Virus record (IMG/VR): IMGVR_UViG_3300032050_000676
Coordinates: 1 to 27,081 of that record
Length of the DNA: 27,081 nucleotides
Reading direction: 5' to 3' (one strand)
From: a virus
The position numbers and the translations under genes are program-made. This document shows positions 894 through 12,250 of the stretch, in pieces; position 1 is the stretch's first letter; every line of letters begins with the position of its first letter. The notes beneath the pieces were generated by a model. It searched no databases. It saw nothing but the letters and a program-made list of their open reading frames with translations, and had not been told where the DNA came from.

Positions 894-1475
894 TTAGTTG
901 TAACCATAAATTGAAAGTGAACCTGTGATTGTAGAAGTGGCTTCTGGAAAAAAAGTAAAACCTGTATATGAAGTTGTTACAGACATATTTCCTGCACAAA
1001 AATCACCATAAGTGTTAGTTCCGTTATTACTACTTCCTAAACTAACATATGAAGCATTTTCAGTTGTAAAAGTATCAGAAACATCTATAACACTGTTTCC
1101 TTTTCTAGCATTAGAACCACTATTAACTAACCAAGAGGTTTCAGTATTTCCACCAGTAGAACCACTTGAACCTGCTCTATTATTAAACCTTACACGTCCA
1201 TAATTTGCTGAAGAGTTATCTGAACCTGATACTCTTAATCTCATTAAAATTCCTGCTTCACTACTGTTTGTATGATTTAATACAATGCGATAATTTCTAT
1301 ACGTTGCACTAAATGCATCATTCAAACTAATACTTGATACACCACTAAAACTTACGTTTCCGTTAGCGTCAACAGACCCAGACCCAGACCCAACAGCCAC
1401 AGACGTTGGAACAATCTTAGCCAACCCACCAGGTTGCACACCGGACAGTGTTGCGTTTATTCTACCAATAGCCAT
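894..1475 (-). CDS. Fibre/decoration paralog E (VPTSVAVGSG family)
   Basis: A 193-residue, Ser/Gly/Thr/Asn-rich protein predicted to be mostly beta strand. After a short leader it carries the family signature VPTSVAVGSGSGSV near residues 22-35, then FSG.SS.SLND.FS.TY.NYRI, then an RVSGSDNSS.NY segment. It ends with GFTFFPEATSTITG and YGYN. Four other proteins here share the same layout. Such Ser/Gly-rich, strand-rich proteins in phage late operons are usually tail fibres, receptor-binding or head-decoration proteins, and which applies is not visible. It is the last paralog before the lysis cassette. AGGAAT before the ATG is a reasonable ribosome site. Confidence 0.72.
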   Translation of the reverse strand: MAIGRINATLSGVQPGGLAKIVPTSVAVGSGSGSVDANGNVSFSGVSSISLNDAFSATYRNYRIVLNHTNSSEAGILMRLRVSGSDNSSANYGRVRFNNRAGSSGSTGGNTETSWLVNSGSNARKGNSVIDVSDTFTTENASYVSLGSSNNGTNTYGDFCAGNMSVTTSYTGFTFFPEATSTITGSLSIYGYN

Positions 1476-1477
1476 AA

Positions 1478-2059
1478 TTAATTCCTATACCCGTAGACGG
1501 AAACTGAACCAGTCATAGTTCCAGCCAATGTAATTAAAGTAAAACCTGTGTAAGAAGTTGTTACAGACATATTACCACCAACAAATTGTGCAAAACCACT
1601 TGAAGCAATTTGAAAATAATTACCTACATAACCTGTTTCTTCTGCTGTAAAAGGATTAAAAAAATCTAAAGAGCTAAAACTTCTACCACTAGAGGAATGC
1701 GCCATAACTCTAAAAGAACTTGTTAAACCTGAACCACTTTGTCCTGCAATTGCTCCAGCACCTGTGTCTTTATATCCAGAAGCCCAACGATAATTATTAG
1801 AAGAATTATCTGCACCTGAAACCCTCATACGCATAGTTAAAGCAGTATCTGCTTCCGTTGAATCTGTATCTATTAGTATTTTGTAATTTGTGTAAGTTGA
1901 ACTAAAAATATCATTTAAAGACACACTAGAACTAGCACTAAAAGATACTTGACCATTACCATTAACAGTAGAAGAACCAGAACCAACCGCAACCGAAGAC
2001 GGCATAAGTTGAACTATCCCAGCATCCGGATAATCAGGATTAAGACGATTAATAGCCAC
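1478..2059 (-). CDS. Fibre/decoration paralog D (VPTSVAVGSG family)
   Basis: A 193-residue beta-rich protein of the same family as its downstream neighbour. It has MPSSVAVGSGSSTV at about residues 19-32, FSASSSVSLNDIFSSTYTNY, an RVSGADNSSNNY segment, and the ending GFTLITLAGTMTGSVS then YGYRN. The start is GTG overlapping the stop of the preceding gene by one base (TAGTG), with GAGG seven bases upstream. The central part, around residues 90-150, differs strongly from the neighbouring paralog while the N- and C-terminal frames are kept. That pattern fits duplication followed by diversification of an exposed region. Probable virion surface or receptor-contact protein; exact role unknown. Confidence 0.72.
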   Translation of the reverse strand: MAINRLNPDYPDAGIVQLMPSSVAVGSGSSTVNGNGQVSFSASSSVSLNDIFSSTYTNYKILIDTDSTEADTALTMRMRVSGADNSSNNYRWASGYKDTGAGAIAGQSGSGLTSSFRVMAHSSSGRSFSSLDFFNPFTAEETGYVGNYFQIASSGFAQFVGGNMSVTTSYTGFTLITLAGTMTGSVSVYGYRN

Positions 2060-2388
2060 TAAGCAACCTCACTGCCAAACAAACCAAAACTCAAATCAGC
2101 AGAAGAAGCATACACAGTAACAACATCTGTTGCAGCCAAAGTCAAACCAAGAGTCAAAGCAATCATATCGTTAGCCGGACAAGTAGCACCAAAAGCAATA
2201 TAATCCTCATTAGCCAACGTTGCACCAGCAACACGAATCGCAATACGATACGTGGCAGCAGAAGCCGAACGGTTACACACCGTGATAGTAGAAACCACAG
2301 CTGACTTACCTGATCCAACAGTGTAAACGTCTGTGTTTGTTGTTGCGCTTGGCGCTGATTGCGCTAAGACTTTATAAGTACTTGACAT
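2059..2388 (-). CDS. Small beta-rich virion decoration/tail-associated protein
   Basis: A 109-residue protein whose sequence (KVLAQSAPSATTNTDVYTVG near the N-terminus, VCNRSASAATYRIA in the middle, a C-terminal FGLFGSEVA) matches a small family I recognise as common in tailed-phage structural modules. It is alternating hydrophobic/polar and Thr/Ala-rich, consistent with a single beta-sandwich domain. There is no enzyme motif, signal peptide or membrane segment. A ribosome site (AGGAAA) precedes the ATG after an 11-bp gap from the glycine-rich fibre gene. It lies among fibre genes, so a small fibre-associated or capsid-decorating subunit is the best guess. The role is inferred from context only. 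Confidence 0.65.
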   Translation of the reverse strand: MSSTYKVLAQSAPSATTNTDVYTVGSGKSAVVSTITVCNRSASAATYRIAIRVAGATLANEDYIAFGATCPANDMIALTLGLTLAATDVVTVYASSADLSFGLFGSEVA

Positions 2389-2399
2389 ATTTTTTTCCT

Positions 2400-3203
2400 T
2401 TAGTTTGTTCTATATCTGATAACAACAATTCCTGAACCACCACTACCGCCTTGACCGCTTCCTTCAACATCGTTCAAAGCACCACCGCCACCACCACCGG
2501 TATTAGCAGATGCAGAACCACCCTGTTGTGCACCACCACTTGTAACAGCAGCAGCACCAACACCACCACCAGCAGGAGAAGCAAAACCGTTACCACCAGC
2601 ACCACCACCAGCATAAGTAACAGCAGAACCAGTACGCAAAGAATTAGTTAAACCAACACCAGCAGAACCAACAGAACCAGCACCACCGGCACCGCCACCA
2701 CCAGAACCACCTTGGTCTTGACCTCTGGTTGGTCCAGCATTATTACCTTGACCACTTGTTCCTGTACCATTACCGGCACCACCGGAACCACCACTGTTAC
2801 CAGTTTGGTTAACCCTGTCACCACCACCACCACCGGTAGCAGTAAAACCAAGTCCTGAAGAATTACCACCATTTGTTGCTTGAGCGTTAGAAGTATTACC
2901 ACCGCTACCACCAGGACCAACAGTAATAGTGTAAGAACCTGCAGCAATATTATTTAAAGAACCAGTAAGAAAACCACCTGCGCCACCGCCGCCGCCACCT
3001 GAATCACTAGGACCACCTCCGCCACCACCACCACCGGCAACAATAAGGTAATCACAATCACCACCAGAAAGCACACTAAAAGTTGTGTCACCTGTAGATG
3101 TAAAAGAATGAACCTTGTAATCAACACCACCAGAAGAATAAGTGGTGATAGTGCCACCAGTTGCTTCAAAACCTGCTGAACCTTGAGAACCAAGAATAAT
3201 CAT
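2400..3203 (-). CDS. Glycine-rich tail fibre protein
   Basis: A 267-residue protein. Residues about 1-50 are a normal beta-type leader (YKVHSFTSTGDTTFSVLSG, then DYLIVAGGG). Residues about 55-250 are dominated by glycine runs, with Ser, Asn and Ala between them. It closes with GGSGIVVIRYRTN. This arrangement of a VAGGGGGGG entry, a polyglycine centre and a GIVVIRY-type exit is typical of glycine-rich phage fibre or adhesin domains, which can form polyglycine-helix bundles that contact receptors. The ATG overlaps the stop of the preceding fibre gene (TAATG), implying coupled translation. The repetitive GGN codons make the locus prone to slippage and recombination. Confidence 0.8.
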   Translation of the reverse strand: MIILGSQGSAGFEATGGTITTYSSGGVDYKVHSFTSTGDTTFSVLSGGDCDYLIVAGGGGGGGGPSDSGGGGGGAGGFLTGSLNNIAAGSYTITVGPGGSGGNTSNAQATNGGNSSGLGFTATGGGGGDRVNQTGNSGGSGGAGNGTGTSGQGNNAGPTRGQDQGGSGGGGAGGAGSVGSAGVGLTNSLRTGSAVTYAGGGAGGNGFASPAGGGVGAAAVTSGGAQQGGSASANTGGGGGGALNDVEGSGQGGSGGSGIVVIRYRTN

Positions 3204-3982
3204 TAAGACACCAAGTTACCGAAAGCAACCCAAGTATCAGTATCAGTTTTCAAAACACCAGCAACAGCATACTGTGCTTTAAGTTTTAATTTACTGTTCT
3301 CTGATTGAATAGTTACACCTGAAGCACCAGTCATCAAAATAGGACCAGTACCTGTTTGAATAAAATTAACAACAGAACCAGTAGGGAAAGCCACAGAACT
3401 ATTCAAAGGAATAGTAATGGTTCCTGTAGAAGTTGTGCTAAAAGGTAACACTTTACCTTGGTCACTTAAAGCTAAAGTGTAGTTACCTGTGTTAGCGTTA
3501 AATCCATAATAGACAGCACCAGCAGTTAATGTTCCACCACTAGCAGCAGCAGTGTGAGCGTGTGTTGCGTTAACAAAAGATCCAATAGTTGGGGTAGTTA
3601 AAGTCTTATTGCTTAAAGTTTGTGAATCAGTTGTACCAACAATAGAACCAGTAACACCGTGCACAGCAGAAGAAGCAGCAATGTGTTCTTGTGGTTCACG
3701 GTAATCACGTGCAGAAGCAACGTGCTTAACCTGGGCACCAGCATCGTGAGCAGTACCAGCAGTACCATCCTGACCGCGAACAATAGTTAACGTGGTACCA
3801 GCAGCAGCCGTAACATTAACAAGTTCCTCACCAGCAGTGTCATAACTCAAAGCCAAAGTATAAGGATACGAGGCAGGAAACCCTGACACAGAAGCAACAG
3901 TGATAGAAGTACCAGAAGCATCAACAGCACCAGTTAAAGTGGTGTCAATAGCGGTAGACGAATAATAACGATTAACAGACAT
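3203..3982 (-). CDS. Tail fibre protein with N-terminal beta module
   Basis: A 259-residue protein. The N-terminal 90 residues hold a module reading TSITVASVSGFP, then EELVNVT, then LTIVRGQDGTAGTAHDAGAQV. Related RG..GT..H..G segments occur in phage fibre and connector proteins, including the 297-residue product encoded just upstream. The middle has DSQTLSNKTLTTPTI, a sequence type frequently seen in tail fibre shafts. The C-terminal 130 residues look like a beta domain (ALSDQGKVLPFSTTSTGTI, then TDTWVAFGNL). It is followed directly by the glycine-rich fibre gene through a TAATG overlap. GGAAGG precedes the ATG. Tail fibre is a confident class assignment; receptor and assembly state are not inferable. 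Confidence 0.78.
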   Translation of the reverse strand: MSVNRYYSSTAIDTTLTGAVDASGTSITVASVSGFPASYPYTLALSYDTAGEELVNVTAAAGTTLTIVRGQDGTAGTAHDAGAQVKHVASARDYREPQEHIAASSAVHGVTGSIVGTTDSQTLSNKTLTTPTIGSFVNATHAHTAAASGGTLTAGAVYYGFNANTGNYTLALSDQGKVLPFSTTSTGTITIPLNSSVAFPTGSVVNFIQTGTGPILMTGASGVTIQSENSKLKLKAQYAVAGVLKTDTDTWVAFGNLVS

Positions 3983-3985
3983 TAC

Positions 3986-4879
3986 TTACCTTCCATATCT
4001 TACGCGAATTGGGAAATCTTCCTGCTGACGTTTAGACGCAACAGTAAGCCTTTGCTGATAAAGTTGAAACAAAGCCCTAGTAACAGTTCCACCAGAACCA
4101 ATAGGTGAAGCCTGATCTATCTGGTCAACCTCAGCAGTTTGACCTGGTAAACGAGAAACATCCAGATAACCTGCAACACGGTACGCAGCACCCAACACAA
4201 CAGGTTCCTTAGCATACGCAGGCAAATAGGTTACATCCTCAAAATCATCTGATGACAAATACATTTCCTGTGGTTGACGTGAATAAACCACGTGAACAGT
4301 ACGACCAGGAACAATACCATCATAAACACTAATTGTTTTACCAGTATTAAAAGTACCAACATAGGCGTTCTTGTTAATAGAATACTGTCTGACAGGCAAC
4401 CATTCTTGTGTTGGACCTGTTGTTTGCCACATAACCTGTAGGATCTCGTCAGCTTCTGAAGGAAGTTCATAAGTGTTTTGGCTTGAGATAAAATTAAATG
4501 TTGTGTAGAACACACCAAAAATGTCAGGGAACACACCAGTGACAGAGTTGTTCAATTGTTTACGGATAACATCTTTAGGAAAACTTGGGGAGATAGTGAC
4601 TCTGTCACCAATATTATGTGGAGCTTTTTGTGTGGATCTAAATCCACGACCGTAAGGTGCAATGGTTGCAACGTTAGTGGCACGGTCAAAAGACTCAACC
4701 CACATAAGTTCATCGCCAACCTCAACAAGGCCTTTAGATAAAGTGGCAGCATCAGACACAGTCATAGTAAGTTGTGTGTCAGTCATAGCAGCAGTTAAAT
4801 AAGTTGACTGGTCTTGGCGTTGAGTGTACCCAGATAGGGCAATAAGTGTTTCGTCAACAAGGTCAGAAAATGATGGCAT
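3986..4879 (-). CDS. Putative head-tail connector/neck structural protein
   Basis: A 297-residue protein. Residues about 25-105 form a beta module (DTQLTMTV, VEVGDELMWVESFD, YGRGFRSTQKAPHNIGDRV). After it come FPKDVIRKQLNNSV, a strand-rich centre (NTYELPSEADEILQVMWQT) and a helical C-terminus ending in EDFPIRVRYGR. The size, the mixed beta centre and the helical end with basic residues resemble podovirus head-tail adaptor or tail-tubular proteins. I cannot match a named family with confidence. ATG overlaps the stop of the 92-residue gene upstream (TAATG). A virion structural role is well supported by context; the connector assignment is inference. Confidence 0.5.
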   Translation of the reverse strand: MPSFSDLVDETLIALSGYTQRQDQSTYLTAAMTDTQLTMTVSDAATLSKGLVEVGDELMWVESFDRATNVATIAPYGRGFRSTQKAPHNIGDRVTISPSFPKDVIRKQLNNSVTGVFPDIFGVFYTTFNFISSQNTYELPSEADEILQVMWQTTGPTQEWLPVRQYSINKNAYVGTFNTGKTISVYDGIVPGRTVHVVYSRQPQEMYLSSDDFEDVTYLPAYAKEPVVLGAAYRVAGYLDVSRLPGQTAEVDQIDQASPIGSGGTVTRALFQLYQQRLTVASKRQQEDFPIRVRYGR

Positions 4880-5157
4880 TAGGAAGCAACCTCTCTTAGA
4901 GCAGGAATGGCTTCAAGGCCAGATGTTCCTGCAAGTTCATTACATACAGCGTTTAAACCTTTGTAGTCTTTAGGGCTACGTCCTGCTTGTGCTTTCTGAT
5001 TAAGCGCACCAAGGATTTCTAAACCGGTTGTGCCAGCCCATTTGTTTGCAGCACCAGCCTGGTCAAGATAAACTGTGCGTGAAGGATAAGACGCACCACC
5101 ATTAGCAAGCCTGTTTAATTCGTCAACCAAAGTTGAGCCATCAAAACCGTAAGTCAT
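4879..5157 (-). CDS. Small protein with duplicated AGT(T/S)GLE motif
   Basis: A 92-residue, Ala/Gly/Leu-rich protein built partly from two copies of a short unit: NKWAGTTGLEILGALNQKA at about residues 38-56 and NELAGTSGLEAIPALREVA at about residues 73-91. Similar 'WAGTTGLE..GALN' units occur in small proteins of phage structural operons. No enzyme motif or membrane segment is seen. ATG overlaps the stop of the 50-residue basic protein gene upstream, and the 297-residue connector-like gene begins in its stop codon, so the three are translated as a block. A minor structural role is inferred from position only. Confidence 0.7.
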   Translation of the reverse strand: MTYGFDGSTLVDELNRLANGGASYPSRTVYLDQAGAANKWAGTTGLEILGALNQKAQAGRSPKDYKGLNAVCNELAGTSGLEAIPALREVAS

Positions 5158-5309
5158 TATTTCTTCTTTCTAGCAACAGCCATATTGTCAATCAAATTAG
5201 GATAAGGACGACCAGCTTTTTTGGCACGTGCTTTAGCAGCAGCCTTCTTAGCCGGTGTTAACTTTGTTGACTTCTTTTTAGGATTCTTTGTTTCCCATAC
5301 TTTTTTCAT
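5157..5309 (-). CDS. Small highly basic protein (50 aa)
   Basis: A short frame read directly from the sequence: ATG at 5309, TAA at 5157, 50 residues. It opens with MKKVWETKNPKKKSTKLTPA, continues with alternating Ala/Lys/Arg, and ends VARKKK. The 4-bp ATGA overlap with the upstream 93-residue gene and the 1-bp TAATG overlap with the downstream 92-residue gene strongly suggest real, coupled translation. More than a third of the residues are Lys or Arg, so binding to DNA or to an acidic virion surface is plausible. No family is recognised. Confidence 0.7.
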   Translation of the reverse strand: MKKVWETKNPKKKSTKLTPAKKAAAKARAKKAGRPYPNLIDNMAVARKKK

Positions 5310-5587
5310 TTACAGTTACAGTCCCAAGCTCTTAGTGATTTGTTTATACGTGAATTAGGATCACGTGCAGTTTTAGCTGAAGTCAGTTTAGACTTCATAC
5401 CACACATACGCCCACAGAAAGACTTACGTCTACCAGCAGACTTAGGTGATTTTTTGGCCTCTGCTGCTTTAACAGGGGGCTTTAGGTTTCCACCAGTAGC
5501 CTTGTTGTATGAAGCACGACCTTTGGCGTTTAAACCACCTTTAGGGTTCTTGCCTTCTTTACGTTGCCAAGCAGCAGATTTAGCCAT
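5306..5587 (-). CDS. Conserved small basic phage protein, DUF6321-like
   Basis: A 93-residue basic protein. The N-terminus (AAWQRKEGKNPKGGLNAKGR, then ASYNKATGGNLKPPV) and the middle RRKSFCGRMCGM closely resemble a family of small proteins found in many aquatic phages, which I believe is catalogued as DUF6321. The function of the family is unknown. Cysteines occur as CGRMC in the middle and CNC at the C-terminus, so metal binding is possible. It belongs to a run of small basic products between the glycosyltransferase and the connector-like gene. Its stop overlaps the next start by ATGA. Family identification is from memory of the motif, so the name is tentative, but that the gene is real is well supported. 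Confidence 0.75.
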   Translation of the reverse strand: MAKSAAWQRKEGKNPKGGLNAKGRASYNKATGGNLKPPVKAAEAKKSPKSAGRRKSFCGRMCGMKSKLTSAKTARDPNSRINKSLRAWDCNCK

Positions 5588-5588
5588 A

Positions 5589-5723
5589 TTACTTAGTCTT
5601 ACCCATTTTCTTCATAGAAGACATTTTCTTAGCCTTCTTCAAATCAGCACCAGTAATCTTCTTACGTGGATCAGCCATTGCAGCTAAACCTTTTTGTTTC
5701 TTAGAATATTTACTGTACGGCAT
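5589..5723 (-). CDS. Small basic protein MPYSKY-type (44 aa)
   Basis: A short frame from ATG at 5723 to TAA at 5589, 44 residues. It begins MPYSKYSKKQKGLAAMADPR, has KKITGADLKKAKK in the centre and ends MGKTK. Very small basic proteins with MPY.KY..KQK..A and KITGADFK-like segments are known in aquatic phage genomes, without an assigned role. ATG overlaps the stop of the gene upstream (TAATG), and AAGAAGAG lies at ribosome-site distance. One base separates its stop from the 93-residue gene. Together with its neighbours it may be a DNA-condensing or head-associated peptide, which is inference. Confidence 0.7.
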   Translation of the reverse strand: MPYSKYSKKQKGLAAMADPRKKITGADLKKAKKMSSMKKMGKTK

Positions 5724-5887
5724 TATTTGCTCTTCTTTGGTTCGTTAGAGTATTCTCCAACTTCAACATACTTTGGTTCAGGTCTGCGGGCAGGAGTTTT
5801 ACCAGATGCCTTAGCAGGATTATTCACAGCGGAACCGCCAACACCGTAAGGGTTGACAGCACCGTAACATCCACATTCGTAACACAT
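5723..5887 (-). CDS. Small Cys-containing protein (54 aa)
   Basis: A frame from ATG at 5887 to TAA at 5723, 54 residues. The N-terminus MCYECGCYGAVNPYGVGG holds three cysteines in a CxxCxC pattern, followed by Gly, Asn and Pro. The second half (PARRPEPKYVEVGEYSNEPK) is charged and probably disordered. AGGAAT lies upstream of ATG, and the end overlaps the next start by TAATG. The cysteines may bind a metal ion. No family is recognised and no function is proposed. It belongs to the run of small proteins between the glycosyltransferase and the connector-like gene. Confidence 0.65.
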   Translation of the reverse strand: MCYECGCYGAVNPYGVGGSAVNNPAKASGKTPARRPEPKYVEVGEYSNEPKKSK

Positions 5888-5889
5888 AT

Positions 5890-6210
5890 TTATATTCCTA
5901 ACTTAGAGATAGCTTTTGCTACCTTCTTATTGGCAAGCCTATGAGCCGGGGCCATCTTCTCCCCGTTATATGGTTTACCAAGATTTTCACTAGCAGTAAC
6001 AGCATCCTTAACTGCTTTCATACTTGTGCCAGCAGGTTGAATACCCTGCTTCCTAGCATCAGCGTAAGCGTTAAGTTCAGCGTCCCACTTCTTACGGGGA
6101 ACAACACGCATATGTGCTGCATCACCAGGATGCAACTCTAACGTGGAAGCCTTACAACCAAAACATCCTTCAACATACTCAGGATGGGTTCTCTGCCTGT
6201 GTAGCGACAT
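5890..6210 (-). CDS. Conserved small phage protein with EGCFGCK motif
   Basis: A 106-residue basic protein. Near the N-terminus it carries HPEYVEGCFGCKASTLEL, a C-x2-C motif of a type I recognise from small proteins in actinobacterial phages, where it is unassigned. The rest is helical and Lys/Ala-rich (KKWDAELNAYADARKQGIQP, later HRLANKKVAKAISKLG). The start at 6210 lies 32 bp inside the glycosyltransferase gene, but GGAGG six bases before the ATG supports it. The Cys pair could bind zinc or iron, although only two cysteines are present, so a site would need another ligand or a dimer. Function unknown. Confidence 0.75.
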   Translation of the reverse strand: MSLHRQRTHPEYVEGCFGCKASTLELHPGDAAHMRVVPRKKWDAELNAYADARKQGIQPAGTSMKAVKDAVTASENLGKPYNGEKMAPAHRLANKKVAKAISKLGI

Positions 6211-7249
6211 AGTTTTCCTCCAACCACTTCAAGTTATCCTGTAAGCGCCCGTCCGTTGGGTTAGCCTCAACAGCCATCTTTGCAAACTTTAATGCTTCAT
6301 CTTTTTTACCAAGTTGCCAACCGGAAACTGATAACAAATCGTAGCAACGCCAATCCCAAACACTCTTATCGTTCAGGTAGTGGGTTTGTGGTTCAAGTTC
6401 ATTAACTTTACTTGCAGCGTCCCAGCACCCCTGCCAGTTGCCAACAGTGTATGAGAACTGTGCAAAACTAAACCAAGGTTCTAACTCGTTAGGGTTCTCT
6501 TTGATTGCCCTTTGAAACCATTGTAAAGCGTTATCTTTATTACCAAGTTCCTGTGAAGCCTGACCTGCAGCACGACACACAGCAGAACGCTCAACATACC
6601 AACCACCAGCGTTTAATGTGGCAAAAGCAGACTCAATAACTTTTTCCCACTTGCGATGAAAATAGTATTCGCGTGTCAGGTAGGCCCACATTCGTGCATC
6701 GCGTGGGTCTTCGTGCACTGCTGCTTCAAGCATCGGTAAATAATAGGTTCTTGCTTTAGTGTCATCAGGTTTATGAAACACTGTCAAATCGTATTCTAAA
6801 GTTTTCTCTTCACCCTCAGCATAACGGAAGGTTACTTCGTGGCAGGGTTTAATCCACCTGTACCCGTGACGTGCGTGCAACCTGTTGTTGTTTCTCCACT
6901 TGTTACCGGTGTCCCACCAAACCCAACCACGACCAGTGTCGGGTTCCCAGGTTTCGCGAACGGTGTGGAAGAAGTTAAACTCTGGTATCTCATCCATATC
7001 AAGTGATAAACAAACATCAACATCAGCAGGGATCAAAGCTAAGGCTGCGTTTCTTGCGTCATCAAACCTGAAAGGTTTAATTGACACTTGGTGAACAATA
7101 ACGTTTGGTGCTGCTTGTAGCAAAGCAACTGTTCTGTCTGTTGAACCTGTGTCTACTACCACACGAACATCTGCGTCTCTTGTTCCTTCAAGCCAACGCA
7201 TCACGTGTTTTTCTTCATTTAATGCAATTGTGTATGCTGCTATTTTCAT
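6179..7249 (-). CDS. Family 2-type glycosyltransferase with TPR-like repeats
   Basis: A 356-residue protein. Residues 1-100 are a GT-A nucleotide-sugar-binding fold: MKIAAYTIALNEEKHVMRWL, then VVDTGSTDRT at about 31-40, FRFDDARNAAL at about 61-70, and the metal-binding DxD as LDMDE at about 83-87. H126 and the PCHEV segment near 135-139 fit the acceptor side. Residues about 180-340 are helical pairs with TPR-like spacing (ALQWFQRAIKENPNELEPW, then EALKFAKMAVEANPTDGRLQ). It would transfer a sugar to a phage or host acceptor. It sits within the fibre region, so virion-protein or host-surface glycosylation is plausible. AAGGGG precedes the ATG. Donor and acceptor cannot be read from the sequence. 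Confidence 0.88.
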   Translation of the reverse strand: MKIAAYTIALNEEKHVMRWLEGTRDADVRVVVDTGSTDRTVALLQAAPNVIVHQVSIKPFRFDDARNAALALIPADVDVCLSLDMDEIPEFNFFHTVRETWEPDTGRGWVWWDTGNKWRNNNRLHARHGYRWIKPCHEVTFRYAEGEEKTLEYDLTVFHKPDDTKARTYYLPMLEAAVHEDPRDARMWAYLTREYYFHRKWEKVIESAFATLNAGGWYVERSAVCRAAGQASQELGNKDNALQWFQRAIKENPNELEPWFSFAQFSYTVGNWQGCWDAASKVNELEPQTHYLNDKSVWDWRCYDLLSVSGWQLGKKDEALKFAKMAVEANPTDGRLQDNLKWLEENYVATQAENPS

Positions 7250-7265
7250 TAGTCCCCTTAATGAA

Positions 7266-7478
7266 TTAGACTGATAGGGTTTGTAGTTCTTCTTCTGTTA
7301 ACCCTAAGGCTGCTAGTTTTGCTAGAGCGGATTCGCGAACTTCTTCTCGTGCAGCCTTGGCTGCTTCGTTTGCTTCGTGTTCTGCTTGACGTTCAGCCAA
7401 CTCTTCATCAGTTGGACTCTCTAGGTAGACTGGTACTGCGCTTCCTGCTGGGGTTATATCTATTGCTTCTTTTGGCAT
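7266..7478 (-). CDS. Small acidic helical protein (70 aa)
   Basis: A 70-residue, Glu/Ala-rich protein. A short N-terminal strand region (MPKEAIDITPAGSAVPVYLE) is followed by a long predicted helix from about residue 23 to 55 (ERQAEHEANEAAKAAREEVR) and then the ALAKLAALGLTEEELQTLSV ending. The LAALGLTEEEL pattern is common at the ends of small proteins in phage tail regions, where such products are often suspected chaperones or assembly helpers. That is only a guess here. AAAAGGAAAT precedes the ATG. The gene lies between fibre paralog C and the glycosyltransferase. Confidence 0.7.
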   Translation of the reverse strand: MPKEAIDITPAGSAVPVYLESPTDEELAERQAEHEANEAAKAAREEVRESALAKLAALGLTEEELQTLSV

Positions 7479-7493
7479 TGTTATTTCCTTTTC

Positions 7494-8066
7494 TTAGTTG
7501 TAACCGTAAACTGACATTCTTCCAGAAAAAGTTCCTGTACCTGGAAAAAAAGTAATTCCATCATAAGAAGTATTTTGATTATGAATACCTGATACATTGC
7601 GAACACGTGACACATCTTCTGCCTGTTGCATCTGTGCTAGTATTGCGGTTTTTTCAGCCAAAAATGGTTTATAAAGTTTCATATCCAAAGCGTTTGGGTT
7701 TCCGCTACCAACTTGCCCAAGAACACCATAATTAGTAGTTTCCCTAACACCAGCAACAGTAGTGCTGTTTCCTTGAACTGATTGTGAAATGTAAGAACTT
7801 GCAGTACTGTTATCAGTACCAGCAACTCTCAAACGAAATTGTAAATTTGCTGCAGTTGTAGAACCATCACCAACAAACATTATTGAATAATAATTGTAGG
7901 TAGATGTAAAACAACCATTTAATGAAAGACTTGAACAACCTGAAAAGGTTATTGTTCCTAAAGAATCTGCTGAACCTGTACCTGAACCCACAGCAACAGA
8001 AGAAGGCACAATCTTAGCCAACCCTGCACGTGAACCCCAATCAGCGGTTTGTCTTGACCTAGTCAT
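7494..8066 (-). CDS. Fibre/decoration paralog C (VPTSVAVGSG family)
   Basis: A 190-residue beta-rich protein. The leader MTRSRQTADWGSRAGLAKIV is short, then the family signature VPSSVAVGSGTGSAD appears at about residues 21-35, followed by FSGCSSLSLNGCFTSTYNYY and RVAGTDNSTASSY. The ending is GITFFPGTGTFSGRMSVYGYN. The core AGLAKIVPSSVAVGSG is almost the same as in paralog E six kilobases away (GGLAKIVPTSVAVGSG), so those two may be the closest pair. Two cysteines occur near SGCSS and NGC. GGGGAG precedes the ATG. Likely a virion surface or receptor-binding subunit. Confidence 0.72.
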   Translation of the reverse strand: MTRSRQTADWGSRAGLAKIVPSSVAVGSGTGSADSLGTITFSGCSSLSLNGCFTSTYNYYSIMFVGDGSTTAANLQFRLRVAGTDNSTASSYISQSVQGNSTTVAGVRETTNYGVLGQVGSGNPNALDMKLYKPFLAEKTAILAQMQQAEDVSRVRNVSGIHNQNTSYDGITFFPGTGTFSGRMSVYGYN

Positions 8067-8075
8067 TGTTCTCCC

Positions 8076-9059
8076 CTAGTCCTTGTAACCGTAAACGCGA
8101 ATAGTGCCAGAAATATTACCAGAGGCAGGAAAAACAGTAAAACCGTCAAAAGAAACATCTCCATTAAACATACCTGTGGTCATTGTTGCATAAGAGTTTG
8201 CACCACTACCATCAAAGTTAGAGTTCCAAGTACCTGTATTTATAGTTAAAAATGGATTAATTACATCAACACCAGTTATAAAGTTTCTTTGTCCTGTTGT
8301 GTGATAACCAATCCTAATAAATGTAGTAATAGCACCAGAAATCCCAGAACTTCCATCTGTTCCAGTTTGATTTCCAGCATAACGATAATTAGAAGTTGAA
8401 TTATCAGCACCAGAAACACGAAATCTTAACTGAATATTAGCACTTGCTGTGTTAGACATATTTGCAAAAGATATTCTATAATTATCGTATGTGCTAGTAA
8501 AACAACCATTAAGGCTTACAGAAGATGCACCACTAAATGTTACGTTACCAATAGCATCCACAGAACCAGTACCGCTACCAACCGCTACTGATGTTGGTAC
8601 AACCATACGCAACCCTGCCGCAGCAGCAGCCACACCATCAGTCTCAGACTTAGTGTAAGCATTAGCAACAGTGAACGCAGTATAAGCAAAAATTTCAACA
8701 ACATCATTAACAGCCAAAGCGCTTGACATAACAACTGATGTGCCGTTAGTGGCAGTGTAATCCTGACCACGAACCTGCAAAGCACCATTCACATACACAG
8801 CCTCAGACCCAGCCACATAGGCTAGGGTTAAACCGTTTGCGTCAATGCCTGTGATAGAAGTTTGTCCTGCTGTTGCAACGAAGTAGTATCTGGTTAGTTG
8901 ACGGTTGTATGTGTCAACATCCCCGTCGGAGTCTATCCACAGGTCGCCTGTTGCTGGTGCTGTTGGTGCACTTGTTTGGTAGGCGATTGGTGATTGTGGT
9001 GTTGTTGGTCCTACGAGTTCAAATGTAGAACCGTTATAAAAATAAAGTGGTTTAGTCAA
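8076..9059 (-). CDS. Tail fibre protein with paralog B domain (VPTSVAVGSG family)
   Basis: A 327-residue protein and the longest paralog. Residues 1-150 are fibre modules: MTKPLYFYNGSTFELVG, then TSAPTAPATGDLWIDSDG at about 28-46, and YVNGALQVRGQDYTATNGTS at about 88-107. DLWIDSDG and NG..L..G.DYTATNG segments are typical of phage tail fibres. TKSETDGVAAAAAG forms a linker. The shared C-terminal domain starts at about residue 153 with VPTSVAVGSGTGSVD and ends with GFTVFPASGNISGTIRVYGYKD. The start is TTG, two bases after the upstream stop (TAAATTG). This gene shows that the paralog domain is carried on a tail-fibre scaffold, which supports a fibre role for the whole family. Confidence 0.8.
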   Translation of the reverse strand: MTKPLYFYNGSTFELVGPTTPQSPIAYQTSAPTAPATGDLWIDSDGDVDTYNRQLTRYYFVATAGQTSITGIDANGLTLAYVAGSEAVYVNGALQVRGQDYTATNGTSVVMSSALAVNDVVEIFAYTAFTVANAYTKSETDGVAAAAAGLRMVVPTSVAVGSGTGSVDAIGNVTFSGASSVSLNGCFTSTYDNYRISFANMSNTASANIQLRFRVSGADNSTSNYRYAGNQTGTDGSSGISGAITTFIRIGYHTTGQRNFITGVDVINPFLTINTGTWNSNFDGSGANSYATMTTGMFNGDVSFDGFTVFPASGNISGTIRVYGYKD

Positions 9060-9060
9060 T

Positions 9061-9705
9061 TTAGTTCTTCAATCCGTAGATAGAAACAGTACCTGTAATA
9101 TTAACGCTATCTGGATACAACAATAAAGAATTATAAGAAGTAGTTGTAGCCAAAGCGCCAGTAAAATTATAAAATCTTACAGCAGAAGCACCACCACTAA
9201 TTTCAGTATTAATAGAATGCCAAACAGTATTTCTTGTATTAAAAGGATTATACATTGCTACTTCAAAACCAGCATATTGTGTGCCGTTAACTTGTCCAGC
9301 CCAACCATAAGTTGCTTGTGACCTTGAACCAGAAATTGTTGTGCTATTTCCTGCAACCAATTGTGAATAATAACTGTTTCCAGTTTCATCAGTGCCACTA
9401 TTTCTCATACGAAACCACATATTTGCAGCACTAGAGCCAACAGTATTAAGAACAATTTTATAGTTATCGTAAGCAGAACTGAATACACCATTAATAGCAA
9501 CTGTGCTTGCACCACTGAAAGTAACAGTTCCGTTAGTGTTAACAGAACCTGAACCTGAACCAACGGCAACGCTAGTAGGAACAATTAATCTTGTTCCAGG
9601 AACATTGTCAGCATAAGATTGAGTAGCAAAACCAGCCAAAGACTCAACCTCAGTTGCAACACTCACCCACTGTGTACCAGACCAAACATACATTGGTTTC
9701 GGCAT
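9061..9705 (-). CDS. Fibre/decoration paralog A (VPTSVAVGSG family)
   Basis: A 214-residue protein. The N-terminal 38 residues (MPKPMYVWSGTQWVSVATEV, then FATQSYADN) resemble the opening of tail-fibre proteins and match the start of its downstream neighbour (MTKPLYFYNGS). The shared domain begins at about residue 41 with VPTSVAVGSGSGSVN, followed by FSGASTVAINGVFSSAYDNY and MRNSGTDETGNSY, and ends with LLLYPDSVNITGTVSIYGLKN. In the final motif YGY is replaced by YGL. Its ATG lies two bases after the stop of the collagen-like gene. Probable receptor-binding or decoration subunit. Confidence 0.75.
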   Translation of the reverse strand: MPKPMYVWSGTQWVSVATEVESLAGFATQSYADNVPGTRLIVPTSVAVGSGSGSVNTNGTVTFSGASTVAINGVFSSAYDNYKIVLNTVGSSAANMWFRMRNSGTDETGNSYYSQLVAGNSTTISGSRSQATYGWAGQVNGTQYAGFEVAMYNPFNTRNTVWHSINTEISGGASAVRFYNFTGALATTTSYNSLLLYPDSVNITGTVSIYGLKN

Positions 9706-9707
9706 AA

Positions 9708-10630
<923 letters not shown>

Positions 10631-10631
<1 letters not shown>

Positions 10632-10978
10632 TAAGAAGTGACCCCTTCGTAAACAGTAAAGCCACCTTCAAGTAAACGAGTCACAGTAGAATCAGGGGCA
10701 GTAACTTCAAGATCATAAACATAATTACCAGCAGCCAAAGCTGTGGTTTCAGCAGCAGTAAGATTCAAAGTAAACTTACCATCAGTAGTACCAACAGTAA
10801 TTTTACCGTTAGAAGAAGTCAAAGAAATAATTGTTGAAACAGAAGTAGGTGAATACTTAACACTCATAGCAGCAGTGTAACCGGTCACATTAACATATGT
10901 GCCATCAATTTTCCACTGTGGTCTAAGGGTAAAAGTAGCCCCTTGATAAACTTTCATATTGTATCTACCTGGTGTCAT
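10631..10978 (-). CDS. Small beta-domain structural protein (BppU-N-like)
   Basis: A 115-residue, strand-rich protein. The pattern [51 protein letters not shown] and [16 protein letters not shown] resembles the small beta-sandwich found in phage structural operons, including the N-terminal domain of baseplate upper proteins. The order 'G..F......W......V..TGY.A...V' then 'G.Y.YDLEV' is the basis of the comparison. There are no membrane or enzyme motifs. The ATG abuts the stop of the 86-residue gene (TAGATG). A head-completion or fibre-attachment role is possible, but nothing here decides it. Confidence 0.65.
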
Positions 10979-11239
10979 CTATTCCTCTATAATATTGGCG
11001 CCGTAACCGGCAGCGATTAAACTTGTACGTTCTGCATCAGAAATCAAATTCTTGTGACCACCCGGATAGTAATACAAAGCGGATTGTGTTTCATCAACGC
11101 TTGGGGTACGAACACTATAATAGGACCCGTCAGTCCTCTGTAAAACACTATTAGCCCTAGTCAACTTATAACGGTAAAACAATGCTCCACCACCGGCAGG
11201 GCCTTCTTCAACAGTAGGTGGTAAAAAATAATAAGCCAT
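10979..11239 (-). CDS. Small protein downstream of capsid gene (86 aa)
   Basis: An 86-residue aromatic-rich protein (MAYYFLPPTVEEGPAGGGAL, then FYRYKLTRANSVLQRTDGSY). The middle has VRTPSVDE, then YYYPGGHKNLISDAERTSLI and AAGYGANIIEE. The combination DGSY..VRTPS.DE....YYPGGH.......L.AAGY is one I recognise from small, uncharacterised actinobacterial phage proteins encoded near the capsid. It could be a head-decoration or head-completion protein. AAGGAGAAC precedes the ATG closely. It lies just after the capsid-gene terminator, so it is probably expressed at a lower level than the capsid protein. Confidence 0.65.
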   Translation of the reverse strand: MAYYFLPPTVEEGPAGGGALFYRYKLTRANSVLQRTDGSYYSVRTPSVDETQSALYYYPGGHKNLISDAERTSLIAAGYGANIIEE

Positions 11240-11299: not shown

Positions 11300-12250
11300 T
11301 TAGACGTTGTTGATGCTTGAGGTTGACTCAATGCGGAACAAGGATGCTTCGCGGTAGCGAGCAAATCCAAGAACGCCGTACCATCCGATTGGACGGAAAC
11401 GCATTAACTTATCGGTAACAGGTCCGATAACTACGTGTGGTTCTTCAGCAACTGCTTCAGCAAGTGCTTGTTTACCAGCAATTAGTGTACGGAATACGCG
11501 TGTAGTTCCAGAAGCACCGTCTGTAGCGTTGTACAAACGTGGTGATTCTACGAACATTGCACCTTCGTATACACCGATTGATCCTGGCCATAGATTGCCA
11601 GCACCTGATTCGTTGTAAACGTGTGCTTCGCGCCATCCGCCTGCGCCTGTTTCTGCACGTAAGTCGTGTGAAACTTCTGGATGTATTCCAACCCAGTACA
11701 ATTCACCAACACGTGGAACAGCTTTGTTTGCACGCAATTTAGCAATAGCTCTACGGATATTTGCTGAAGTGATGACAGAACCACCGGTAACACCAGTAGT
11801 TGTTGTTCCACCACCTGAGTAAATTACGTTTGAACCTTGACGTAGCACTGTTTGTGCAAAGTTGTCAATAGAATCTGCCATATTGAATGCGATGATGTCA
11901 GCGATTGCTGGATCAACATCAGACAATGAGAACAGTTCTAATTTGCGTGTTGCGATTGCAGCGTTTCCATATTCATTTAGAGTTACGGTTACGTTGCTTG
12001 TATTTCCTAAAGCTACTGAATCTGGATCTACAGTTTCAGTTAAAGTGCCGGTTACTGCCGATAAATCAGTGTATAACTGGAATACGACAGATGAACCTGG
12101 CATAGCCTGTTGTGCAGGGCGCTTATCAGCAACATCGCGGATAAGTGGCATAGCACGCAGAGCAAATTCTACATAGCGGTCATAAGCAGTCTGTACCAAG
12201 GAAGTTCCAAGGGACGCGGTGCTAGTACTAGTATAATTTTCTGTAGGCAA
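11300..12250 (-). CDS. Major capsid protein, N4-gp56-like (HK97 fold)
   Basis: A 316-residue protein. The N-terminus is disordered (ENYTSTSTASLGTSL), then YDRYVEFALRAMPLIRDVAD, GSSVVFQLYTDLSAVTGTL, and a Thr/Val strand region with VALGNTSNVTVTLNEYGNA. The pattern of an 'A.RAMPLI...A' helix, then 'G..V.F..YTDL......L.E' and 'V.V.L.EYGNA', matches N4-gp56-type capsid proteins. The C-terminus is beta-rich (VIGPVTDKLMRFRPIGWYG, FRIESTSS). The protein assembles the capsid shell around the scaffold encoded just upstream. The start is TTG with AAGGTG seven bases before it. The size is on the short side for this family but complete. Confidence 0.88.
   Translation of the reverse strand: MPTENYTSTSTASLGTSLVQTAYDRYVEFALRAMPLIRDVADKRPAQQAMPGSSVVFQLYTDLSAVTGTLTETVDPDSVALGNTSNVTVTLNEYGNAAIATRKLELFSLSDVDPAIADIIAFNMADSIDNFAQTVLRQGSNVIYSGGGTTTTGVTGGSVITSANIRRAIAKLRANKAVPRVGELYWVGIHPEVSHDLRAETGAGGWREAHVYNESGAGNLWPGSIGVYEGAMFVESPRLYNATDGASGTTRVFRTLIAGKQALAEAVAEEPHVVIGPVTDKLMRFRPIGWYGVLGFARYREASLFRIESTSSINNV

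Follow-up and report, generated by a model that had tools for sequence, protein, structure and literature searches.

What do five related genes contribute to a single small freshwater phage, and why do their proteins agree at both ends and differ in the middle? The genes, P0001 to P0005, lie in IMG/VR virus record IMGVR_UViG_3300032050_000676, the whole of which (27,081 bp) was analysed and is called the window here; the record probably covers only part of a larger genome. The genes of interest in the window all run on the minus strand. The answer that we favour, at a probability of about 0.72, is that each of the five codes for a fibre-tip adhesin and that all share one new domain family, with anchored gene positions (slots) and central bodies that were exchanged as blocks. 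In this model, a slot-specific N-terminus would fix each protein to the virion, the conserved entry and exit would supply the opening and closing strands of an all-beta fold, and the binding face would lie on a central body of ~70-100 residues. Recombination within or close to the conserved ends would transfer bodies as blocks from phage to phage, each slot keeping its anchor while changing specificity, and a phage with several slots would have several adhesins at once. We infer that the proteins are present in the virion, bind a glycan or protein on the host surface and act jointly.

P0001 (894..1475) and P0002 (1478..2059, GTG start) were located in a region termed site 2, and P0003 (7494..8066), P0004 (8076..9059, TTG start) and P0005 (9061..9705) in site 1. 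A preliminary description of this DNA had listed five related open reading frames (ORFs) at these positions without mentioning their minus-strand orientation, and their relationship was confirmed. Pairwise BLASTP gave 33-44% identity over 177-203 residues (E 4.6e-24 to 1.1e-37), with scores of 84-119 bits versus 37.7 bits for the best of 1,000 shuffled sequences. The common domain spanned ~173 residues, was C-terminal in all five proteins and had 29 invariant columns; the shared motifs, VP(T/S)SVAVGSG, F-S...N..F..xY..Y, R-x-R..G-x-D and a YG(Y/L) ending, were aligned in each of them. A profile search of the entire record recovered no sixth copy, even at E<=10. P0001, the last gene ahead of a holin-like gene, and the adjacent P0002 were 44% identical and had a 57-nt stretch of 82% identity; the nearest kin of P0002 was a copy in a relative (L021, 56%). 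The N-terminus preceding the domain was only ~20 residues long in P0001, P0002 and P0003, and that of P0003 (TRSRQTADWGSRAG) was 100% conserved across the relatives compared. P0005 had a fibre-like N-terminus of its own (~40 residues). In P0004, a fibre-type N-terminus (residues 1-150) was followed by the tip domain (residues ~152-327). This N-terminus matched PHROG 38058 'tail fiber' (E 1.8e-11), and residues ~27-154 matched tail proteins of Pelagibacter, Limnohabitans and Bradyrhizobium phages in tblastn, in agreement with the earlier remark that one copy rides on a fibre N-terminus.

Mean column identity over 83 copies was 0.38-0.51 in the entry, core and C-terminus versus 0.15-0.19 in the centre (residues 96-165 of P0003). 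Within the centre, column identity was 0.14-0.15 in beta strands versus 0.18-0.23 in non-strand residues. The strands varied as much as the other residues, showing that the whole central sheet changes and not an exposed loop, as the preliminary description had proposed. The variable unit is the whole central stretch of ~70-100 residues, strands included. At the DNA level, third-position identity in the window-type entry (PTSVAVGSG) was 0.39-0.53 versus 0.34-0.41 in the body, and no recombination site is claimed there.

Relatives of the window were collected with the SU10-type tail adaptor (3986..4879) as backbone marker. In same-backbone relatives, the first 152 codons of the P0004 gene, its constant N-terminal part (8604..9059), were kept at 82-92% nucleotide identity where the domain bodies were unrelated. 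The mid-body of intact orthologues fell to 34-40% at the nucleotide and 12-24% at the amino-acid level, and the last 12 residues were back up to 75-83% amino-acid identity. A tree of 87 domain copies left most deep branches unresolved and was used for close pairs only; dependence on slot was therefore tested by permutation, with 22 copies in three slots. Body identity was the same within and between slots (0.14 vs 0.14, p=0.58), whereas identity was higher within slots for the entry (0.74 vs 0.66, p=0.0005) and the C-terminus (0.54 vs 0.50, p=0.0015). Moreover, the body DNA of P0003 (7520..7959) was 85% identical over 444 nt to that of a copy in L022, with the similarity weak in the entry and gone near the C-terminus. 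In the 18 kb of L022, no match was found to the major capsid protein, portal, terminase, adaptor, glycosyltransferase or M23 lysin of the window. Since bodies were independent of gene position and one was held in common with an unrelated phage, exchange dominates, and most of the change in bodies came from exchange and not from divergence in place. Entire tips were also replaced by other domains, that of P0004 in L007 (by a C1q domain) and L014 and that of P0005 in L013. Genes for endonuclease VII and HNH endonuclease were observed in or beside the tip arrays of L013 (10326-10799) and L014 (12185-12760), where they could promote exchange. The contigs L166 and L167 agreed at 99-100% across ~8 kb, beginning at about 3,800, and their tips (L166:11716-12273 and L167:11716-12264) had unrelated bodies from inside the joint (about 11,820) onward. 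This looks like a recent swap or, given the long identical block, an assembly chimera, and is taken as supporting only.

No model matched the tip domain in Pfam (all five proteins) or NCBIfam (four tested), and weak PHROG matches covered parts of minor tail and fibre families. An AlphaFold2 model of P0003 built with 83 relatives was an all-beta domain (mean predicted local distance difference test score, pLDDT, 94.2; predicted template modelling score 0.87). The full-length model of P0004 had a C-terminal domain with the same strand order, mostly at pLDDT >90; its N-terminal half was of low confidence and was left uninterpreted. With the strand order alike in the two domains, the unrelated folds that the preliminary description had named as a refutation were not seen. 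Among predicted viral structures, 135 matches were obtained at E<=1e-3 with template modelling (TM) scores up to 0.85, mostly to proteins of uncultured Caudovirales, some of them named tail fibre, collagen repeat or Stf repeat. These structural neighbours included fibre tips borne on collagen-like or Stf-like stalks. The domain was abundant: 337 copies were counted across 247 loci that had been fetched, among which are overlapping stretches of single contigs.

In siphovirus-like relatives, the domain gene comes after tape-measure-like and distal-tail-like genes. About 11 distinct ones of these have, behind the domain gene and a small ORF, another small ORF in convergent orientation and another copy of the domain that lacks an N-terminus. 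Inverted TTAGTG(C/G)AGT joints stood at both ends of this two-state invertible cassette (L204:2283-3667 and L114:3508-4892), and further cassettes with inverted joints were found in L241, L232, L208, L110, L111, L118, L125, L126 and L196; in L114 and L196, one end lay at the contig end. L204 and L114 came from different metagenomes. They had a 2,288-bp flank of 100% identity in common, and 1,385 bp were inverted without a mismatch, an inversion that exchanges two tips behind a constant N-terminus. The stretch identical between both joints at the breakpoint was TTAGTG, and with so short a stretch an assembly artefact would explain the difference poorly. Flipped forms of three other cassettes were sought in IMG/VR and were not found. 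Because the domain is kept under an invertible tip switch in these relatives, it is very probably a host-contact tip, the interchangeable part with which these phages would recognise their hosts, and a role in receptor contact is well supported.

A tyrosine recombinase gene lay beside the cassette in the examined relatives with enough sequence; that of L204 is at 4224-5057. The product matched Xer-type NCBIfam models (best E 9.7e-12, none reaching its curated cut-off), a PHROG integrase family (7.5e-24) and PF00589 (8.7e-6, just below the cut-off). No serine recombinase of the Mu/P1 type was found beside the cassettes, as the adjacent gene matched tyrosine recombinases; this enzyme is a candidate catalyst of the inversion. 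In the branch with the entry SFS(A/G)VASQ, third-position identity in the joint DNA was 0.90 versus 0.33-0.41 upstream and ~0.38 in the body, and only this branch had an entry conserved at the DNA level. Similar SFS(A/G)VASQ joints were observed in 37 copies (e.g., L043:9989-10080), the exact motif occurred in 88 IMG/VR stretches, and its synonymous-site conservation extended to podovirus-like phages in which no second copy was visible (L166, L016 and L045).

Several observations weigh against the adhesin reading for the window. The invertible cassettes form a sub-branch with the SFS(A/G)VASQ entry, which is unrepresented in the window; a sequence search of the PDB with the tip domain found no relative; the best PDB fold match of the P0003 domain in Foldseek was weak (AbnA domain 4, TM 0.40); and site 1 adjoins the capsid genes, a position also compatible with a head fibre or a decoration of the capsid. 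Further weak Foldseek matches to PDB folds were CBM6, CBM8 and SPRY (TM 0.3-0.4); the best matches were CBM- and lectin-like, to carbohydrate- and ligand-binding beta sandwiches, and the P0004 domain had no PDB fold match below E 1e-3. With no PDB sequence relative and fold matches at TM <= 0.4, the class of ligand is only a guess, a glycan being a plausible one. Alternatively, the five proteins might form a coat on the capsid or on its collagen-like fibres, with loose surface adhesion in place of specific receptor recognition. Directly ahead of site 1 lie the capsid gene and two small genes of the head region, its first gene is the collagen-like one, three copies have almost no fibre shaft, and in L070 the domain is fused to a collagen-like protein. 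However, the N-terminus of P0004 is of the tail-fibre type, site 2 adjoins the adaptor and tail fibre genes, and the position of the domain gene in siphovirus-like relatives, together with its switching by inversion, fits a tail tip. Decoration is thus unlikely but keeps an appreciable share of the probability.

Simple duplication, after which an exposed loop diverged by point mutation, is close to the repeated duplication that the preliminary description had invoked; it is too simple and is largely refuted as the main process, though it may have had a part in how the tandem slots arose. The tandem arrangement of the genes and the similarity of the adjacent P0001 and P0002 (the 44% identity and the 57-nt stretch) agree with it, but body identity was independent of slot, bodies were at the chance DNA level among phages with 82-92% identical anchors, strands varied like loops, and the P0003 body was 85% identical in DNA to one in an unrelated phage; we consider this mechanism improbable. 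Even less probable is a diversity-generating retroelement or an invertible cassette active within the window's own virus, an idea prompted by the hypervariable centres and by the inversion present in relatives. All five copies were on one strand and no exact match to TTAGTG(C/G)AGT was present in the window, where 3 single-mismatch matches compared with 5.0 expected by chance. Neither a reverse transcriptase nor a recombinase was found among the ORFs searched, although absence from a 27-kb fragment is not final, and bodies differed by replacement of whole blocks and by indels, not by base-specific substitution. By its sequence, the window looks to be without a tip switch and to have its five tips co-encoded. 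The picture of one domain family with five co-encoded copies and a probable receptor contact, the last drawn from the invertible cassette of relatives, stands, and loop divergence and simple duplication do not. A wider proposal, which we hold to be rather doubtful, is that freshwater phages of one host group have a common pool of tip bodies moving between unrelated phages via conserved joints. The SFS(A/G)VASQ joint would be the recombinase target, also in trans at co-infection, and the window would hold five fixed slots that draw on the same pool and are displayed together.

Genes from terminase to lysin were uniform in direction, so that the five tip genes could plausibly belong to one late operon, but there are gaps of 148 nt (5158-5305) and 302 nt (5588-5889). 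On the minus strand, the order was terminase, portal, internal virion proteins, capsid, two small head-region genes, collagen-like gene, P0005, P0004, P0003, a 70-aa ORF, glycosyltransferase, small genes, SU10-type adaptor, fibre, Gly-rich protein, P0002, P0001, holin-like gene and M23 lysin. This gene set points to a podovirus-like morphology. A 33.7-kb contig of the window's own virus, the source of L005 and L164, was identical wherever compared. The closest isolated relative found was Planktophila phage F5 (OX376641.1), in which gene order was conserved; identity was 65-79% for the major capsid protein (11300..12250, also a backbone marker), 54% for the portal, 48% for the terminase and 39% for the adaptor. 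Phage F5 infects a 'Ca. Nanopelagicales' strain (PMC10202952), and from this synteny a host of the Nanopelagicales type is likely for the window's phage. A host search among genome contigs returned three contigs of metagenome-assembled genomes only. A truncated secreted protein with TTGTPQTNPGFIDSWIELWQ was observed at 2-229 of the window, and siphovirus-like relatives have the same protein beside the lysin, which suggests a common host group. A near-identity search among named phages gave no match to the window, Rfam and tRNA scans of it gave none either, and its promoter and terminator signals were at or near chance.

Phage F5 had no site 1 island (6211..10978): only 4 nt separated its homologues of the two flanking genes (10979-11239 and 5890-6210), which makes an empty site; neither the island nor the tip domain was found in the stretch of F5 examined. 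The island starts with the collagen-like fibre gene (9708..10631), to a homologue of which the tip domain was fused in L070 and L169. A glycosyltransferase with TPR repeats (6179-7249) edges the island and was not at that place in F5. The site 2 variable region (894..3982) comprised a fibre gene (3203-3982), the Gly-rich gene (2400-3203), an ORF at 2059-2388, P0002 and P0001. As a speculation, P0001 to P0003, with their ~20-residue anchors, may be attached to the tips of the collagen-like or Gly-rich fibres encoded nearby. Copy number was compared among contigs with adaptors 86-100% identical, some of which end before site 2. Site 1 held three tip copies in the window, L172 and L178, two in L169 (one of them the collagen-like fusion), one in L170/L171 and L177, and none in L166, L167, L168, L173-L176, L179 and L180. 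Site 2 held two in the window, one in L166, L167 and L178, and none in others. Copy number (0-3 at site 1, 0-2 at site 2) and centres thus varied among related contigs, the comparison that had been suggested for this locus.

The 70-aa ORF after the site 1 tip array (7266..7478) had homologues after 203 of the 283 testable domain copies. The family (~70-85 aa) had no Pfam match above the cut-off and, in relatives, is part of the segment that inverts; its position suggests that it may be a tip-specific assembly partner.

Modular receptor-binding proteins and host-recognition islands are already well known, and the principle is not new. In the mosaicism of tail fibres and receptor-binding proteins (Smug et al. 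2023, PMC10684548) and in metaviromic islands of host recognition (Mizuno et al. 2014, PMC3909814), as here, a constant N-terminal anchor is joined to an exchanged recognition part, exchange across families is recent, and the host-recognition island is hypervariable. Planktophila phages E7 and F5, which are backbone relatives, also have a variable host-recognition island and collagen-like genes (PMC10202952). Unlike that mosaicism, in which the C-terminal part is exchanged, the unit here is the middle of a domain between a conserved entry and exit, and a single small phage, that of the window, carries as many as five copies of an unnamed domain. The relatives with cassettes, and not the window, resemble the Rin shufflon of Bifidobacterium phages (Mavrich et al. 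2018, PMC6109161) in combining a constant N-terminus of a receptor-binding protein with alternative C-termini and in having an adjacent Xer-like tyrosine recombinase, a short asymmetric crossover site and inversion between genomes. They differ in the two-state cassette of two convergent tips each with a small ORF, in the tip domain, and in a site, TTAGTG(C/G)AGT, that lies within the FS(A/G)V coding sequence, unlike the 11-bp rix TTCCCTAACCC of Rin. The cassettes are also like those of Mu and P1 in that convergent pairs of a fibre-tip and a small gene, one copy without an N-terminus, are flipped as a unit, but the recombinase is a tyrosine and not a serine enzyme and the small ORF has no detectable family. 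The Mu G segment and the P1 C segment are organised as S-U / U'-S'.

To judge from our searches, three things are new: a domain family whose exchange unit is central, its arrangement in five slots, and a two-state cassette together with its joint site. They provide a testable anatomy for an abundant and unannotated fibre-tip domain in phages that probably prey on Nanopelagicales, which are among the most abundant freshwater bacteria. The variation in host recognition would be stored in the central body, between conserved ends, and one domain is put to two uses, in several fixed slots or in a two-state switch. Exact candidate inversion sites and a candidate recombinase are supplied for direct testing.

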